NCBI GenBank assembly: GCA_028335865.1
Contig: JAOKTA010000003.1
Span: 1 to 52,499, forward strand
Source of the DNA: Candidatus Nitrosopumilus sp.
GTDB lineage: Archaea; Thermoproteota; Nitrososphaeria; Nitrososphaerales; Nitrosopumilaceae
Direction: 5' to 3'
DNA length: 52,499 bases
The notes below the pieces were generated by a model. The model saw only the letters and a list, made by a program, of their open reading frames with translations, had not been told where the DNA came from and made no database searches. Shown piece by piece: positions 36,167-52,499 of this stretch. Numbering within the stretch: position 1 is the stretch's first letter; every line of letters begins with the position of its first letter. Made by a program: the position numbers and the translations under genes.

Positions 36167-36925
36167 TCAATCATCTTTTACTTCAATTTTATTTTTACCA
36201 AATTTGTTGTATCCCTCTTCATTGTATCCCTCATTGTTGTAACCCAGATGATCATACCCGAGTCTATCGTACCCGTCTTTGTCATGCCTATTACCATCAT
36301 ACCCGTCTAAACCATACCCGTTACTGTCATACCCGTTTTCATCGTACCCGTCCTTGTCATACCCGTTTTCATCGTACCCGTCCTTGCTGTAACCCTCTTT
36401 GTTAAACCCGTTTTTGTTGTATCCTTCCTTGCTGTAACCCTCTTTGTTAAACCCGTTTTTGTTGTATCCTTCCTTGCTGTAACCCTCTTTGTTAAACCCG
36501 TTTTTGTTGTATCCTTCCTTGCTGTATCCTTTTTTGTTGTAACCCTCCCCATCAAAAGTTATTCCTGTATCAATGTGAATCCCATCAGAAGAAAAACCGC
36601 GATTATCATGTCCTTCCTTGTCATATCCTTTTTTGTCATACCCGTTTTTGTTATACCCATCATCGTCATACCCCTTGTTATCATATCCCTCTTCGTTGTA
36701 CCCCTCTACGTTGTACCTGTTTTTGTTGTATCCCTTTTTGTCATACCCGTTTTTGTCATACCCGTCCTTGTTGAGTTTCTTTTTGTCATACCCCTTGCTA
36801 TCAAACCCGTTTTCATCAAACCCGTTTTTGTTGTATCCCTTTTTGTCATACCCGTCTTTGTCATACCCGTCTAAATCATACCCAAACTTGTCAAATGTTT
36901 TAGTAAATTTATCAAACAGTCCCAT
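36167..36925 (-). CDS. Pentapeptide-periodic (Y/F-D/N-x-x-G) repeat protein
   Basis: Dozens of GYDKDG/GYNKNG/GFNKEG units; in-frame 45-bp tandem duplication. Confidence 0.75.
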   Translation of the reverse strand: MGLFDKFTKTFDKFGYDLDGYDKDGYDKKGYNKNGFDENGFDSKGYDKKKLNKDGYDKNGYDKKGYNKNRYNVEGYNEEGYDNKGYDDDGYNKNGYDKKGYDKEGHDNRGFSSDGIHIDTGITFDGEGYNKKGYSKEGYNKNGFNKEGYSKEGYNKNGFNKEGYSKEGYNKNGFNKEGYSKDGYDENGYDKDGYDENGYDSNGYGLDGYDGNRHDKDGYDRLGYDHLGYNNEGYNEEGYNKFGKNKIEVKDD

Positions 36926-42852: not shown

Positions 42853-43623
42853 CTACCCTAGTGTAAATACGGAACCATCTTCTGGGTTGCCATCTATGTC
42901 AAAACCATATTCGTTGTACTTTGTTCCAGTTTTTTCATGAAGTCTATCCACGTCAAAACCAAAGTCGTTGTATTTTTTTCCAGTTTTTTTATAAAGTTTA
43001 TTTTTATTAAATCCGTCCTTGTTGTACCCGTCTTTGCCAAATCCGTCCTTGTTGTACCCGTCCTTGTTGTATCCATTTTTGCTATACCCGTCCATGTCAT
43101 ACCCGTCTTTGCCAAAATTACTTTGGGTGTGTTTGTTGAATCCTGTATCCTTGTTGTACCCGTCTAGATTAAACCCGTCCGCATCACATCCGTCCTTGTC
43201 ATACCCGTCCATGTCATACCCGTCTTTGCCAAAATTACTTTGGGTGTGTTTGTTGAATCCGGTATCCTTGTTGAATCCGTCCTTGTTGTACCCGTCTATG
43301 TCAAGTTCATACTGATTAAAGCCGTCCTTGGTAAACCCGTCCTTGTTGAATCCATATTTGTCATACCCGTCGATGTCATACCCGTCTTCAGCACACTTTG
43401 TTCGAGTGTGCTTGTTAATCCCTGTGTCCTTGTGAAACAATCTGTAATCATAATCTTCCTCATCCCACTTTTGGTTAGTAATTTTATGAATTCCATCTCG
43501 GTTAAAACCACGTCTGTTATTTCCCTCTATGTCAAATCTTAATTCGTCATACTTTGTTCCAGTAATTTTGTGTATTCCGTCCCCGTTCCACTGTGAACTT
43601 GAATCTGCAGTCATGAAGAACAT
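42853..43623 (-). CDS. Repeat protein mixing GYDxDG units with TGTKYxExGFDxDG and DTGFNKHTQSNFGKDG units
   Basis: Repeat pattern in translation; related to 36167 protein. Confidence 0.75.
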   Translation of the reverse strand: MFFMTADSSSQWNGDGIHKITGTKYDELRFDIEGNNRRGFNRDGIHKITNQKWDEEDYDYRLFHKDTGINKHTRTKCAEDGYDIDGYDKYGFNKDGFTKDGFNQYELDIDGYNKDGFNKDTGFNKHTQSNFGKDGYDMDGYDKDGCDADGFNLDGYNKDTGFNKHTQSNFGKDGYDMDGYSKNGYNKDGYNKDGFGKDGYNKDGFNKNKLYKKTGKKYNDFGFDVDRLHEKTGTKYNEYGFDIDGNPEDGSVFTLG

Positions 43624-43954: not shown

Positions 43955-44692
43955 ATGATCAAAATAAATAAAATCAAGGACATCACATTTGTTCTAGCTG
44001 CAGTTACAGATTTTTCAGATTCAATGGGATATTGTGAGTACAAAGTCCCACTATCAATACAGGGGGTAAAACCTAGACCGTCCCAGGCATTAATTCAAGG
44101 AACAAAAGCACATCATGAAAAAGACGTTTACGAGAAAGAACACGTCGAATTAGAACCTGTAACCGTAACTGAAATCAAAGATGAGAAAAAAGATATCGAG
44201 TTTGCACGTGAAAACATTTACTCCACACTAACCCTTCCTTTTGAATTTCCAACTGAAAATGTCATTGTTTCATTGTCTGGAAGAATTGATAAAATCATGC
44301 GAGTTGACGGTACCCTGATAGTTCAAGACGATAAATTTGTAGCAAAACCACAGACGTATGATTCCAAAACGCAGCCATACCCCGGTCAATTGCTTCAGGT
44401 ATTGACATATCTTAATTCAAATTATTCCTCAAAAAGAAGGGCAAACCCTGATGATTATTTGGATATGTCCCATACGCAAAAACAATGGCAACTTCGAATT
44501 TGTGACAGAAAAACCAGGGAGCCATACAAGATATTTTCTGAAGTCCAAGACCCCTTTTCACTGCATTATCTGCACACATCACTTGAGAGATTTGCCAGCA
44601 TCGCAGTGAACCTTACAGAGCCACAGCATCACAACAACAAACGAAAGTGCGACGCATGCGGTTTGAAGAATGCCTGTGAATTTAGATTGTGA
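43955..44692 (+). CDS. Cas4/RecB-like PD-(D/E)XK nuclease
   Basis: SGRIDKI..LIVQDDKF, GQLLQVLTYL, C-terminal CDACGLKNACEF cysteine cluster. Confidence 0.75.
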   Translation: MIKINKIKDITFVLAAVTDFSDSMGYCEYKVPLSIQGVKPRPSQALIQGTKAHHEKDVYEKEHVELEPVTVTEIKDEKKDIEFARENIYSTLTLPFEFPTENVIVSLSGRIDKIMRVDGTLIVQDDKFVAKPQTYDSKTQPYPGQLLQVLTYLNSNYSSKRRANPDDYLDMSHTQKQWQLRICDRKTREPYKIFSEVQDPFSLHYLHTSLERFASIAVNLTEPQHHNNKRKCDACGLKNACEFRL

Positions 44693-47616: not shown

Positions 47617-47841
47617 TCATCCAACCCCCAATTTCATATCGTTGTTTTTTTGTGTCGGTAATTGGGTTGCACTAATTGCTTTCTTTAGTAACCCGCCAAT
47701 AGTCCCAGATGAGGATTTCAACTGAATTGATACAAATTCTTCACAGTTGATGAGGGTTCTTCTTTTTACAATTACGACCTCATTAACTTTGGATTCCTCT
47801 GTACTTGATTGCACTTCTTGTGTTTCGATTTGTTCTGTCAT
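47617..47841 (-). CDS. Hypothetical 74-aa protein (MTEQIETQEVQSSTEESKVNEVVIVKRRTLIN...)
   Basis: ORF; decayed paralog at 50587. Confidence 0.6.
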   Translation of the reverse strand: MTEQIETQEVQSSTEESKVNEVVIVKRRTLINCEEFVSIQLKSSSGTIGGLLKKAISATQLPTQKNNDMKLGVG

Positions 47842-47880: not shown

Positions 47881-47906
47881 CATAGTATGCATACTAATCA
47901 TACTAT
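47881..47906. promoter_or_regulatory. Candidate operator TAGTATGCATACTAATCATACTA
   Basis: 14-bp perfect palindrome TAGTATGCATACTA (47883-47896) plus third half-site at 9-bp spacing. Confidence 0.55.
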
Positions 47907-47907
47907 A

Positions 47908-48654
47908 ATGACAAATCTAGCCACGTTTCGAGTGCATATTGCCCCTTTAGGCTTTGAAATTGACAGAATTGTCATCCCCCTCAAACAAACAAAGGCAGAC
48001 AGATTATGGGTAATATCTAATGATAGTCGTCCTAATGATAAATCCACACCATATCTGGAGAAAATAAAAAAAGAATGTAAAAAGATGGGAATTGAGGTTA
48101 AGGTGGCATACAGTGACAGACTGAGTCTTTTCAAAGCAATAAAATCAATCAAAGACATTATTTCTCAAGAAAAAGGTAATTACATTTACGTAAATGTTGC
48201 ATCAGGATCAAAAATACAGGCAATTGCATGTATGATGGCATGTATGGTGTTAAAGGAGTGCGATAACTTACAACCGTTCTATGCAGAACCTGAAAGTTAT
48301 GCCGCATTTGAAGGAAAGCAACAATCATTTGGAATCAAAGATACAATCCCCCTACCAATATACGAGATACAAACCCCAAAACCAAAATTGCTTGCAGCAT
48401 TAAAAATAGTTTCAGACCAACCAAACCAAAAAATTACAAAAAAAGAAATGGCACAAATTGCAGAGGAGCAAAAAATCATCACAGTGAATGCAGAGGATGA
48501 AAATCACTCGCAAGCAAGATTTGCAAGCTTGGATAAGAACATCATAGCACCATTAGAAAAAGAATGGAAGTTTATCGAGGTTGAAAAAATTGGAAGAAAC
48601 CGCTGGATAAAAATTACTCAAGAAGGAAAAGACGCAGCAGAATTTTTACTTTAA
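47908..48654 (+). CDS. CARF-like wHTH regulator (HFX_2341/DUF6293-type); start revised from 47887
   Basis: FRVHIAPLGFEIDRIVIPL, YVNVASGSKIQAIACMMA (CARF-like), C-terminal wHTH. Confidence 0.75.
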   Translation: MTNLATFRVHIAPLGFEIDRIVIPLKQTKADRLWVISNDSRPNDKSTPYLEKIKKECKKMGIEVKVAYSDRLSLFKAIKSIKDIISQEKGNYIYVNVASGSKIQAIACMMACMVLKECDNLQPFYAEPESYAAFEGKQQSFGIKDTIPLPIYEIQTPKPKLLAALKIVSDQPNQKITKKEMAQIAEEQKIITVNAEDENHSQARFASLDKNIIAPLEKEWKFIEVEKIGRNRWIKITQEGKDAAEFLL

Positions 48655-49194
48655 TTCTTTTTCCCACAACTTTCTAAACTCTGGCATTTCTTTGTGTAAC
48701 CATGCATACCATTTTACAAATTCAGCAGTTTCATTTTTGATATAATCTATAATCTCATCATACTTTTTTACATCATACCAGTGAACAACTGGACTTCCGC
48801 TGTGGGATTTACCTGTTAGTTTATCCAGCCCTGATCCCCTGAACTCCCCCTTGTTCATCATAATTCCAATGGCATGCAAGTCAATACATGGCCTGGACAG
48901 TATAGTAATTGGAAATAAATCATATTTTGCAGACTTTTCTAAAAGAAATTTGTGCTCAAATCCCAAATTATACCCGACTGGAACAAAATCAAACGAGTAA
49001 TTGTTAGTAATTGGTGAATCCTCGATGAATTTTCTTAGCATTTCCCCCTCGCCCAATTCCCATTCTTTGAGTATGGTCAATTCCCCCAGTTGTTTGCCCG
49101 TACCGCGCTCAAGTTCCACGTACTGGATGGTGGTTATCTTGCTTTCAACCTCATCAAGACCCGTAGTTTCGATATCCAGGTAGTAATTTCCCAC
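48646..49194 (-). CDS. DnaQ-like (DEDD) 3'-5' exonuclease / RNase H-like
   Basis: YYLDIETTGLD (Exo I), VGYNLGFEHKFLL (Exo II). Confidence 0.75.
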   Translation of the reverse strand: MGNYYLDIETTGLDEVESKITTIQYVELERGTGKQLGELTILKEWELGEGEMLRKFIEDSPITNNYSFDFVPVGYNLGFEHKFLLEKSAKYDLFPITILSRPCIDLHAIGIMMNKGEFRGSGLDKLTGKSHSGSPVVHWYDVKKYDEIIDYIKNETAEFVKWYAWLHKEMPEFRKLWEKELK

Positions 49195-49236
49195 ATTGTT
49201 GCTTGGTTTTTGGATATTTTACTATGATCATTAATT

Positions 49237-49264
49237 GTATGAACAGTATGAACTGTATGCATAC
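49237..49264. promoter_or_regulatory. Candidate operator GTATGAACAGTATGAACTGTATGCATAC
   Basis: Three GTATG at 9-bp period plus CATAC; same architecture as 47881-47906. Confidence 0.55.
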
Positions 49265-49306
49265 TATTGACATGTGTCATAATAATACTATCCGCATATA
49301 CAGTAC

Positions 49307-49420
49307 ATGAAACAGCAAGTAATTCAAAAGAAAACAAACTCGGAGATCACATTTTTTCCAATAATAATCCGAGAGTTTGAGGATGATGACGAACCAATGT
49401 ACTACGGAGGAAAAGCATGA
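49307..49420 (+). CDS. Small ORF MKQQVIQKKTNSEITFFPIIIREFEDDDEPMYYGGKA
   Basis: First of a run of start/stop-overlapping ORFs. Confidence 0.5.
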   Translation: MKQQVIQKKTNSEITFFPIIIREFEDDDEPMYYGGKA

Positions 49421-49530
49421 CGGTACTGTTTCGAATGAAAAACCATTCACATCGAGACAGCATCCTATCCTCATTTGCAAACCTCAAAGAAAAACTAGAA
49501 GAGTTTGAAAACAAGGGGAATCAAGTTTGA
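49417..49530 (+). CDS. Small ORF MTVLFRMKNHSHRDSILSSFANLKEKLEEFENKGNQV
   Basis: ATGA overlap with 49307 ORF. Confidence 0.5.
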   Translation: MTVLFRMKNHSHRDSILSSFANLKEKLEEFENKGNQV

Positions 49531-49715
49531 AAATAAAGGAACTGAGTTCCAGTGACTTGCAGTCAATTCTTTATTGGTACACCAAGGCATTTGGCGATAG
49601 TGATGAAATACCTGATAATCACAAAAATACATTGATAAAAATTCAAGCAATGGCAATCTATGCAAAAGAAGATGAAGACTGGACTGACAAATTCTTCAAA
49701 AGGAGAATGAGATGA
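49527..49715 (+). CDS. Hypothetical small protein (TTG start)
   Basis: TTGA overlap. Confidence 0.55.
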   Translation: MKIKELSSSDLQSILYWYTKAFGDSDEIPDNHKNTLIKIQAMAIYAKEDEDWTDKFFKRRMR

Positions 49716-49891
49716 AGCAACTGGATTTGGAAAATTTTGAATGCAACATAGGATTGATGGCAAGAGCAAAAGATAATCATGATAATTACGTATTATTCAC
49801 ATTTGAAGATCTTGAAAAAATGATAGAGTATTACAACTCATTCAAAAAAGAATTTAATCAAAAAATGAATCCATCAAGGAATAAAAAATGA
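49712..49891 (+). CDS. Small ORF MKQLDLENFECNIGLMARAKDNHDNYVLFTFEDLEKMIEYYNSFKKEFNQKMNPSRNKK
   Basis: ATGA overlaps on both sides. Confidence 0.55.
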   Translation: MKQLDLENFECNIGLMARAKDNHDNYVLFTFEDLEKMIEYYNSFKKEFNQKMNPSRNKK

Positions 49892-50103
49892 TTAATAATA
49901 ATTTGACATGCCCTCAATGTAATAAAAACAATGTAGCAGTAATCTTCTGGGGATACCCTGGAAACATGGACTGGTATCTGCAGGCAATTAAGAATAAGGA
50001 GATCGTTCCCGGTGGATGTCTTATTGGCAATGATGATTCAAAATGGGAATGTACTGATTGCCATTGGCAATGGGGTACGAGAGATGAGGATGAGGACGAA
50101 TGA
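49888..50103 (+). CDS. Zinc-ribbon protein
   Basis: CPQCNKNNV..WGYPGN..GGCLIGNDDSKWECTDC. Confidence 0.7.
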   Translation: MINNNLTCPQCNKNNVAVIFWGYPGNMDWYLQAIKNKEIVPGGCLIGNDDSKWECTDCHWQWGTRDEDEDE

Positions 50104-50297
50104 AAGGGTTTACTAAAGTTCTTTTTTGGACATTGACTATTATTTTGGGGTTTGTCAATCCAGTAATCAGCGTAATAATGGTAGTGCTGTATTATCTTCC
50201 AAAAATTATCGATGATGCTTGCAAGCCATGTAATGAACCACAAGAAGATTATGAGATGAACTCGTTTTCAGAAGACGTGATAGAGGATATGAAATAG
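50100..50297 (+). CDS. Small membrane protein
   Basis: N-terminal hydrophobic segments; ATGA overlap. Confidence 0.6.
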   Translation: MKGFTKVLFWTLTIILGFVNPVISVIMVVLYYLPKIIDDACKPCNEPQEDYEMNSFSEDVIEDMK

Positions 50298-50590
50298 TGT
50301 CAAATGAAACAGTGGATTCCAAAAAGAAAAGTGCGTCTGAGGCATTTGTTAACTCCTTTGGAGGCTATCCTATAGGGTATGGAGTTGGAATTATTATTTT
50401 ACCACTTTCTATGGGTTGGGTTCAAGAGGATCCATACATGGCAAACATCGCAATTACAGGGGTGTATGCCACAGTGTCTTTTGTCAGGTCATATTTTTTG
50501 AGAAGAATATTCGAGAAGTATGGCATTGATGACAATTTCATCAGGTTGGCTCAAAAAGGCATTAGAAAAATAACGAAGATAATAAAATGA
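50297..50590 (+). CDS. Small two-TM membrane protein (GTG start)
   Basis: 97-aa ORF, overlaps previous stop. Confidence 0.6.
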   Translation: MSNETVDSKKKSASEAFVNSFGGYPIGYGVGIIILPLSMGWVQEDPYMANIAITGVYATVSFVRSYFLRRIFEKYGIDDNFIRLAQKGIRKITKIIK

Positions 50591-50827: not shown

Positions 50828-52096
50828 TTAATCTAGAATTTTTTGTAAAAATTCAAAAATTCTGTTCGTACGGATTTTGCTATCTGGAATAGAAATTAAA
50901 TCCATAGCAGCATCAATGTCAATAAATCTAATTTTAATTGTGTAATCACGATTTTCTGCTTTATATTCATCAGAAAGGGATTTTGATGTTTTTGGATAAA
51001 TCAAATAACCCTCATTTTTTCCCTGATGGCTCATATAATCTAGCATTTGTCTCAAATCTTCACGTTTGATATTATTAGTTCCATCAGCACTCACACTATC
51101 TTTGTACTTGGTATCTAAGATGTATTTCACATCCACACCATTTTCTTCGTAAATAAAACCATCAGGCTCATTAGATTTTTTTTCACCTAATTTAGATTTC
51201 CAGGATAGAGAACTTTTAGGCTTATTACTTGTTAGTGGATGGTTCTCGGCTATGAGTTTAAAAAAGAATTTTTCAAAGATCTTGTTCATATCTATAAAAA
51301 ATGAATTAACAAATGATGTTTCTTGTTTATAAAAATCAGAAATTCCCATATTTTGGATTATAATTTTACAAAGATCATGTGTTTTTTCATAATATTGATT
51401 TAATCGAGTGTAGTTGAGTTGTTTAAAATGATCCATAGAGATTTTTTTGTACTCTACAAATTGTTCCATTTGTTGAATCATACTATTAAATTCATTTTTT
51501 TTAGAATCAAAATTTGTTAAATCACGACATTGATATAAACAATATAATAAAATCTGATTTTCTAAATTATTATATTCTAATTCATCATATTCGCAAGCAA
51601 ATTTTGCATTTAATGTAGCATCATTTTGAAGTTGTTGAACAAGTAATAATTTTCCTCTCAAACAAGGCATGGAAGTATCTTGATGAAGTACATATGATTT
51701 GTAAAGACCCTGCATAATCAAATTTTTACAATGATGAAGAAAAGAGGAAATTATAATTTCAACCAACATATTGTTTTCATTTTTAAATTTAATTTCACTT
51801 TCAGGTATTAGTTCAACCTCTACATCCCAGGCATAGTTGATGAGTTTTACTAAATTTTGTATGTTTGTAAATTTTGGATTTATAATTACTGAAAAATTGG
51901 TAAATTGTGCAACACCAATTTTACTTTCTGCTTTAAATTCTATTTTTTTTAACCTTTCATTACTTCGAATTGTTAAAAATTTTTTATTTTCTAATTTTTC
52001 TTGTAAAACTAGATCTTCATCGTCCATCAAAATATTCTTTTTATCATATGATAGAGATTGATATTCGCGTAATTCAATTGTTTTATTATTTCCCAT
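50828..52096 (-). CDS. mcrC: McrC, nuclease subunit of McrBC-type type IV restriction system
   Basis: PDGFIYEENGVDVKYILDTKYKDS PD-(D/E)XK; McrB C-terminus immediately upstream. Confidence 0.85.
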   Translation of the reverse strand: MGNNKTIELREYQSLSYDKKNILMDDEDLVLQEKLENKKFLTIRSNERLKKIEFKAESKIGVAQFTNFSVIINPKFTNIQNLVKLINYAWDVEVELIPESEIKFKNENNMLVEIIISSFLHHCKNLIMQGLYKSYVLHQDTSMPCLRGKLLLVQQLQNDATLNAKFACEYDELEYNNLENQILLYCLYQCRDLTNFDSKKNEFNSMIQQMEQFVEYKKISMDHFKQLNYTRLNQYYEKTHDLCKIIIQNMGISDFYKQETSFVNSFFIDMNKIFEKFFFKLIAENHPLTSNKPKSSLSWKSKLGEKKSNEPDGFIYEENGVDVKYILDTKYKDSVSADGTNNIKREDLRQMLDYMSHQGKNEGYLIYPKTSKSLSDEYKAENRDYTIKIRFIDIDAAMDLISIPDSKIRTNRIFEFLQKILD

Positions 52097-52499
52097 TAGT
52101 TTGATGTTAAAATTTTATTAATTGCTGCTTTGAAATTTTCATCATCATTTTTCCAGTCAGATTTTATTTCATCATTTAAACTATCTATAAAATCTGAATT
52201 AAGAATTTTATCTTCTAATTTTTTGTAATCATGATAAAAATAATCTTGCAATAATGGAATAATTTCTACAGCAAATATAGTGCGTAGATCTTCAATATTT
52301 TTACAATCATCCATAAAATAAGAATGGCCAATTTGTTTATCTCTAAATTGTGGGCCTTCGGCTCTAATTCTACTGTTTAATGTAGATAGTAGATTTTTTA
52401 ATGAAATATCGTCTATGGATTTATCTAATTCTTTGAGACCATATTCTGGCATTAGTTCTTCAAAAGCAAATCTTCGTCTTAATGCCGTATCCAGTTGGG
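52096..52499 (-). CDS. mcrB: McrB-type AAA+ GTPase, 3' end only
   Basis: Open minus frame to window edge: QLDTALRRRFAFEELMPEYGL...IGHSYFMDD...EIIPLLQDYFYHDY. Confidence 0.8.
   Translation of the reverse strand, partial: QLDTALRRRFAFEELMPEYGLKELDKSIDDISLKNLLSTLNSRIRAEGPQFRDKQIGHSYFMDDCKNIEDLRTIFAVEIIPLLQDYFYHDYKKLEDKILNSDFIDSLNDEIKSDWKNDDENFKAAINKILTSN

Follow-up and report, generated by a model that had tools for sequence, protein, structure and literature searches.

CARF-domain transcription factors with a winged helix-turn-helix (wHTH) have been described in several archaea. Csa3 is CRISPR-linked and binds cA4 (PMC8844856); in S. islandicus the expression of nurA-rad50-mre11-herA goes up when Csa3b is overexpressed, and for Csa3a a coupling between the activation of CRISPR and of DNA-repair genes is reported (PMC7480081). 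In Haloferax mediterranei HFX_2341 mainly represses transport and metabolism genes and cas genes (PMC11434293), while for MM_0565 of Methanosarcina mazei the authors found no distinct binding motif (PMC7465815). A position rule is available from another set of regulators, TrmBL1, Tgr and VNG1451C, whose palindromes activate when placed upstream of BRE/TATA and repress when placed downstream (PMC4158304). Comparative sequence data make it very probable that, in ammonia-oxidising archaea, a CARF regulator acts through one strictly positioned signal on its own gene, a microprotein gene and DNA-cutting and repair genes.

The window, the whole 52,499-nucleotide stretch of DNA analysed here, is a contig of a Candidatus Nitrosopumilus sp. 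draft genome of 726,794 b (727 kb; 56% complete). An earlier note on this DNA had described a perfect 14-bp palindrome, TAGTATGCATACTA, at 47883–47896, an additional CATACTA 9 bp past it, and the array GTATGAACA-GTATGAACT-GTATGCATAC at 49237–49264; all three are exact in the sequence, with the additional CATACTA at 47899–47905. The composite that it held to be common to both promoters, GTATG-N4-GTATGCATAC, matches exactly twice in the window, where composition alone predicts 1.1e-4 exact matches and shuffling predicts 0.06 when as many as two mismatches are tolerated. The motif is not scattered over unrelated sites: at up to one mismatch only the two window copies occur in the draft genome, and at two mismatches there are two further places. 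Table 1 lists the features of the locus.

Table 1. Operators, promoter element and genes of the regulator locus in the window
Feature	Position	Strand	Placement or basis
74-aa protein	47617..47841	-	Start 41 bp from O1; no Pfam match
Operator O1, TAGTATGCATACTAATCATACTA	47883..47905	+	2 bp before regulator ATG, 41 bp before divergent ATG 47841
HFX_2341/DUF6293-type regulator, 248 aa, N-terminal CARF and C-terminal winged helix	47908..48654	+	Pfam
RNase H-fold (DEDD-like) exonuclease, 182 aa, target gene	48646..49194	-	PF13482, 3.4e-5
Operator O2b, overlapping O2a, 9-bp-shifted, made by third GTATG repeat	49235..49257	-	PWM match
Operator O2a, TAGTATGCATACAGTTCATACTG (read on - strand)	49244..49266	-	Right edge 40 bp from ATG 49307
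Putative TATA element, ATAATAAT, small-ORF promoter	49279..49286	+	-28 to -21 from ATG; sequence
37-aa microprotein, MKQQVIQKKTNSEITFFPIIIREFEDDDEPMYYGGKA, first gene of small-ORF operon	49307..49420	+	Family member
Rest of small-ORF operon: 62-, 59-, 71-aa (zinc-ribbon-like), 65- and 97-aa (DUF7220 membrane protein) ORFs	49527..50590	+	

The CARF-like N-terminus and C-terminal HTH that had been claimed for the regulator are borne out by Pfam matches above cut-off to HFX_2341_N (PF19810; 1.5e-35, 122.6 bits versus a cut-off of 30) and to the DUF6293_C winged helix (PF22665; 2.6e-23, 82.8 bits versus 27). Csa3_N matches much more weakly (34.9 bits versus 27), and the Card1 CARF domain also gives a weaker match above its cut-off; no TrmB domain is among the Pfam matches. 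ATG 47908 is preferred as the start, since the alternative at 47887 falls within the operator. Because a sequence search of the PDB gave weak matches only, a fold search was used: an AF2 model (pLDDT 88.6) retrieved Csm6, Csa3-cA4, ring nucleases and Cam1 as top Foldseek matches (E values 1e-7 to 1e-8; Csa3-cA4 6wxq, E=4.9e-8), with TM-scores by query length, taken over both domains, of 0.4–0.5. The predicted structure is a CARF fold close to that of Csa3-cA4. The CARF ligand motif is (D/N)-X-(S/T)-X3-(R/K) in the β4-α4 loop (PMC8844856), and the corresponding region here reads N96-x-[A/S]98-SGS-K102, in which N96 and S99-G-S-K102 are invariant across a 31-sequence alignment and position 98 is serine in many orthologues and alanine in the window protein. 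We lean towards a nucleotide-type ligand for this domain. Across 252 family genomes the Cas10 palm domain gave no match above cut-off; such a ligand is therefore unlikely to come from a type III system, and type III CRISPR was rejected as the source of the signal. The window and the inspected gene lists showed no cas operon near the regulator, only a solo Cas4-like PD-(D/E)XK gene, and the regulator is therefore not classed as a Csa3.

Fifty-eight named orthologue loci were collected, and 51 upstream regions were aligned on the start codon. Across these Nitrosopumilaceae orthologue promoters the motif is conserved as a 23-bp unit, TAGTATG-cwwACTrTA-CATACTA, with near-invariant arms; it begins at −25 from the ATG in 39 of the 51 regions and is a strong candidate for an operator. 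At the regulator's own promoter TAGTATG-N9-CATACTA ends 2–3 bp before the HFX_2341/DUF6293 start codon and lies downstream of the TATA box, a TATA-like ATTATTATATA being found ~10 bp upstream of the 23-bp self-site. Since this element is ~38 bp before the regulator ATG, the transcription start is expected to fall inside the operator, and the pyrimidine-purine seen at operator positions 13–14 in nearly all self-sites would be fitting for an initiator there. The earlier description of the repeats as GTATG at 9-bp spacing suits the other target promoters, which keep the inner GTATGCATAC, better than the self-promoter, where the inner half-site is variable. Direct 9-bp repeats as the sole definition of the motif were rejected, as the 23-bp inverted repeat is the unit conserved at the self-promoter.

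From stretches of at most 20 kb surrounding loci with the motif, 122 distinct sites were obtained (69 self-promoter, 53 other). In 105 of the 122, the flank of the operator that faces away from the regulator has an ATG or GTG at a distance of exactly 40 or 41 bp, against an average of 8 for other two-base windows (~8 expected); one other window is high, owing to a conserved ATG at +5 which belongs to the promoter and is not a start. A binomial calculation was also made for the 40/41-bp spacing. Forty of the 53 sites without an adjoining regulator gene follow the same rule, so the spacing is imposed by the target promoters. The operator thereby occupies −63 to −41 of the target start codon, abutting BRE/TATA. 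When 82 promoters were aligned at 40 bp, the base preceding the ATG was a pyrimidine in every one, and a TATAATAA TATA element appeared near −28 to −22. Both the −1 pyrimidine and the TATA position match initiation at the ATG, and target transcripts are probably leaderless; for Nitrosopumilus we came across no publication on leaderless transcription. The usual A-A near −34/−33 is replaced by a conserved T-G, which suggests a weak BRE. A composition profile of control promoters, drawn from crude gene calls, was too noisy for a general TATA/BRE pattern. The profile of the 82 aligned divergent promoters also backs the TATA assignment at the small-ORF promoter (Table 1).

Control of the 74-aa, exonuclease and small-ORF promoters, as the earlier note had envisaged, gains comparative support from this geometry, to which all three conform. 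Homologues of the 74-aa protein (G165, G167, G122 and G086) also start 40–41 bp from an operator. For the exonuclease the relevant site is O2b: from its GTG (49194) the distance is 49 bp to the 23-mer operator but 40 bp to the left edge of the 9-bp-shifted one, which has a weak PWM score (8.0), yet is exactly placed. The G086 and G167 orthologues of the exonuclease have a single operator at exactly 40 bp from the start codon, and alignment of the region against G167, G086 and G152 reveals exactly one inserted 9-bp unit in the window and in the close relative G168. From these alignments, the exonuclease is seen to meet the 40-bp rule via a 9-bp tandem duplication.

An operon that Pfam identifies as NurA-HerA-Mre11-Rad50 follows the operator in relatives. 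All four genes stand in this order in G108, G121, G122, G038, G149 and G085, and in the likewise operator-linked nurA operon of G031 the contig ends within Rad50. Two types of NurA, of about 288 and 365 aa, are found in mostly different genomes. For the 365-aa type 30 genes were examined, and about 15 of them have a clear operator at the fixed place; none was present at 30 loci of the PF09376-best, mostly 288-aa type; an operator at every nurA was consequently rejected in favour of the 365-aa type only. The regulator gene adjoins the nurA operon in G108, G121, G014 and G177, the last two without a nurA site, which is also absent from the regulator-carrying G178, G112 and G118. A leader ORF of 27–31 aa, ITNSQIITLGKYHT, distinct from the microprotein, lies between operator and nurA, mostly overlapping or abutting the nurA start (L132, about 2223–2315; L136, L126, L133 and others). 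Further operator targets in relatives are a UvrD-PD(D/E)XK helicase-nuclease (G152), PIN-domain proteins, zinc-ribbon small proteins and DUF7220-containing operons. Elsewhere in the window, the regulon cluster is adjoined by an McrC-like gene (PF10117) that has a small ORF upstream of it (50828–52452), the solo Cas4-like PD-(D/E)XK gene (43955–44692) is again found next to regulator loci of G066, G074 and G086, and two long proteins of repeated DGYDKDGYN-type motifs are encoded at 36167–36925 and 42853–43623.

The gene divergent from the regulator mostly encodes a protein of 22–44 aa with the core [FY]P[RK][IV][IK][RS]xF[DE], starting 40/41 bp from the operator. It was found in Nitrosotalea-, Nitrosotenuis-, Nitrosarchaeum- and Nitrosopumilus-type loci (L035-L092 and others), and the window microprotein reads FPIIIREFE over this core. 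Differences within the family are concentrated at the third codon position (318/382/1094 and 188/225/1089 by codon position), and the codon changes are mostly synonymous; the microprotein is thus coding and under purifying selection. In some cases it also stands first in front of UvrD-PD(D/E)XK. The DUF7220 small membrane protein of the same window operon (97 aa, 50297–50590; DUF7220 match 8.6e-18) is related to the phage family phrog_4276 and recurs in operator-linked operons, at L122, L123, L124, L136 and L138.

Of 252 Nitrosopumilaceae genomes, 119 have an orthologue of the regulator. A search of all 252 with the exact pattern gave about 47 matches, versus 2 with a reversed control, and the refined pattern (≤2 mismatches) is present in 97 of the 119 regulator-carrying versus 18 of the 133 regulator-free genomes (Fisher p=3e-29, a statistic that takes no account of phylogeny). 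Nitrosotalea genomes often have the self/microprotein site only. The motif is also kept in orthologous promoters, just upstream of the regulator start in nearly all orthologues, which together with the gene co-occurrence upholds the autoregulation that had been proposed. A mobile-element or viral origin was rejected: no relative of the regulator was found in IMG/VR, and the regulator matched no PHROG. The motif matches three IMG/VR contigs, in two of them within a coding gene; on a 62-kb viral contig (IMGVR_UViG_3300025168_000084; L188, 12557–12651) there are three intergenic or promoter-like copies, which could reflect a virus exploiting the regulator, or chance or a host segment.

Taken as a whole, we think it likely that the CARF-wHTH regulator encoded between the repeats uses them as its operator, for autorepression and for the activation of a DNA-processing/defence regulon. 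Bound between the TATA box and its own start codon, the regulator would block initiation and so repress itself; bound at −63 to −41, directly upstream of BRE/TATA, it would help to recruit TFB/TBP and so activate. The CARF domain would switch the regulator upon a signal that is probably of nucleotide type. In the window the predicted regulon comprises the 74-aa gene, the exonuclease and the microprotein/DUF7220 operon, to which relatives would add nurA-herA-mre11-rad50, UvrD-PD(D/E)XK and PIN genes. Self-repression with target activation is proposed by analogy to the position rule of TrmBL1, Tgr and VNG1451C, and on that analogy activation at the target promoters is moderately likely. An effect of a CARF-wHTH protein on end resection has a precedent in the reports on Csa3b and Csa3a in Sulfolobus. 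A wider scheme, in which a damage- or infection-derived nucleotide signal operates a CRISPR-independent second-messenger switch for genome protection, with end-resection and further nuclease operons activated from the −41 operator and modulation by the divergent microprotein, is offered tentatively and is rather doubtful as it stands.

The regulator might instead repress at all sites, blocking TFB at the adjacent BRE of its targets until the signal releases it. Such a role would suit an operator whose edge at −41 abuts the BRE region, and Haloferax HFX_2341 represses most of the genes that it affects, including cas genes upon overexpression. However, repressors usually allow a variable position, whereas the spacing here is 40/41 bp at 105 of 122 sites; the T-G in place of the BRE adenines matches a weak, activator-dependent promoter, and archaeal dual regulators activate from upstream sites. 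Repression throughout therefore seems unlikely to us, although it keeps an appreciable minority chance. It is improbable that a different transcription factor reads the operator and that the CARF gene is merely one of its targets. This would account for seven genomes that have a nurA site and no detectable PF19810 protein (G149, G035 and G025, each 99% complete; G106, 92%; G085, G244 and G031). Some of these sites are weaker, but that of G035 scores 27.3, and either these genomes have lost the regulator recently or their site is read by another protein. Another factor would also accommodate the 22 genomes with a regulator homologue and no motif at ≤2 mismatches, yet many of the regulator-positive, motif-free genomes have divergent or fragmentary homologues only, and the strong co-occurrence and near-universal self-site are hallmarks of autoregulation. 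We infer that the CARF-wHTH protein itself binds the operator, and the link between the two is very likely. A non-regulatory origin, as the end of a mobile element, a site of recombination or a dispersed repeat, is brought to mind by several regulon loci rich in small element-like genes, including the phage-related DUF7220, and by the intergenic copies on the 62-kb IMG/VR contig, but it is largely refuted by copies that are promoter-locked at two fixed positions and do not occur in bulk elsewhere, and its probability is very small.

CARF-wHTH regulators are a known kind; the operator, the position code, the regulon and the microprotein appear to be new. Control of double-strand-break processing in archaea outside the Sulfolobales is poorly understood, and no defined binding motif is given in the papers that we found on HFX_2341 and MM_0565; with one operator, one candidate protein and a base-pair-exact list of targets, both questions become testable in vitro. 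The predicted regulon would connect DNA end resection with a CARF sensor where the genome has no recognisable cyclic-oligoadenylate synthase, which points to a novel signal in some of the sea's most abundant archaea, and the conserved microprotein beside the regulator offers a new handle on the system.

The position-dependent regulators TrmBL1, Tgr and VNG1451C likewise have an operator upstream of BRE/TATA at some promoters and over the start region at others, but they belong to the unrelated TrmB sensor family, respond to sugar ligands and use other palindromes. Csa3a and Csa3b of the Sulfolobales share the CARF and wHTH domains and, from the Csa3-cA4 structures, the fold; in contrast, the present regulator has no cas-gene link in the inspected loci, no Cas10 over cut-off and a palindromic operator. 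MM_0565 is also a CARF-wHTH regulator, with broad effects outside CRISPR (PMC7465815). HFX_2341 has the same Pfam architecture, HFX_2341_N plus DUF6293_C, and, as here, is not tied to CRISPR loci, acting as a global regulator (PMC11434293); no operator was mapped in that work, whereas the Nitrosopumilaceae regulator is associated with a fixed-position operator and a DNA-processing regulon.
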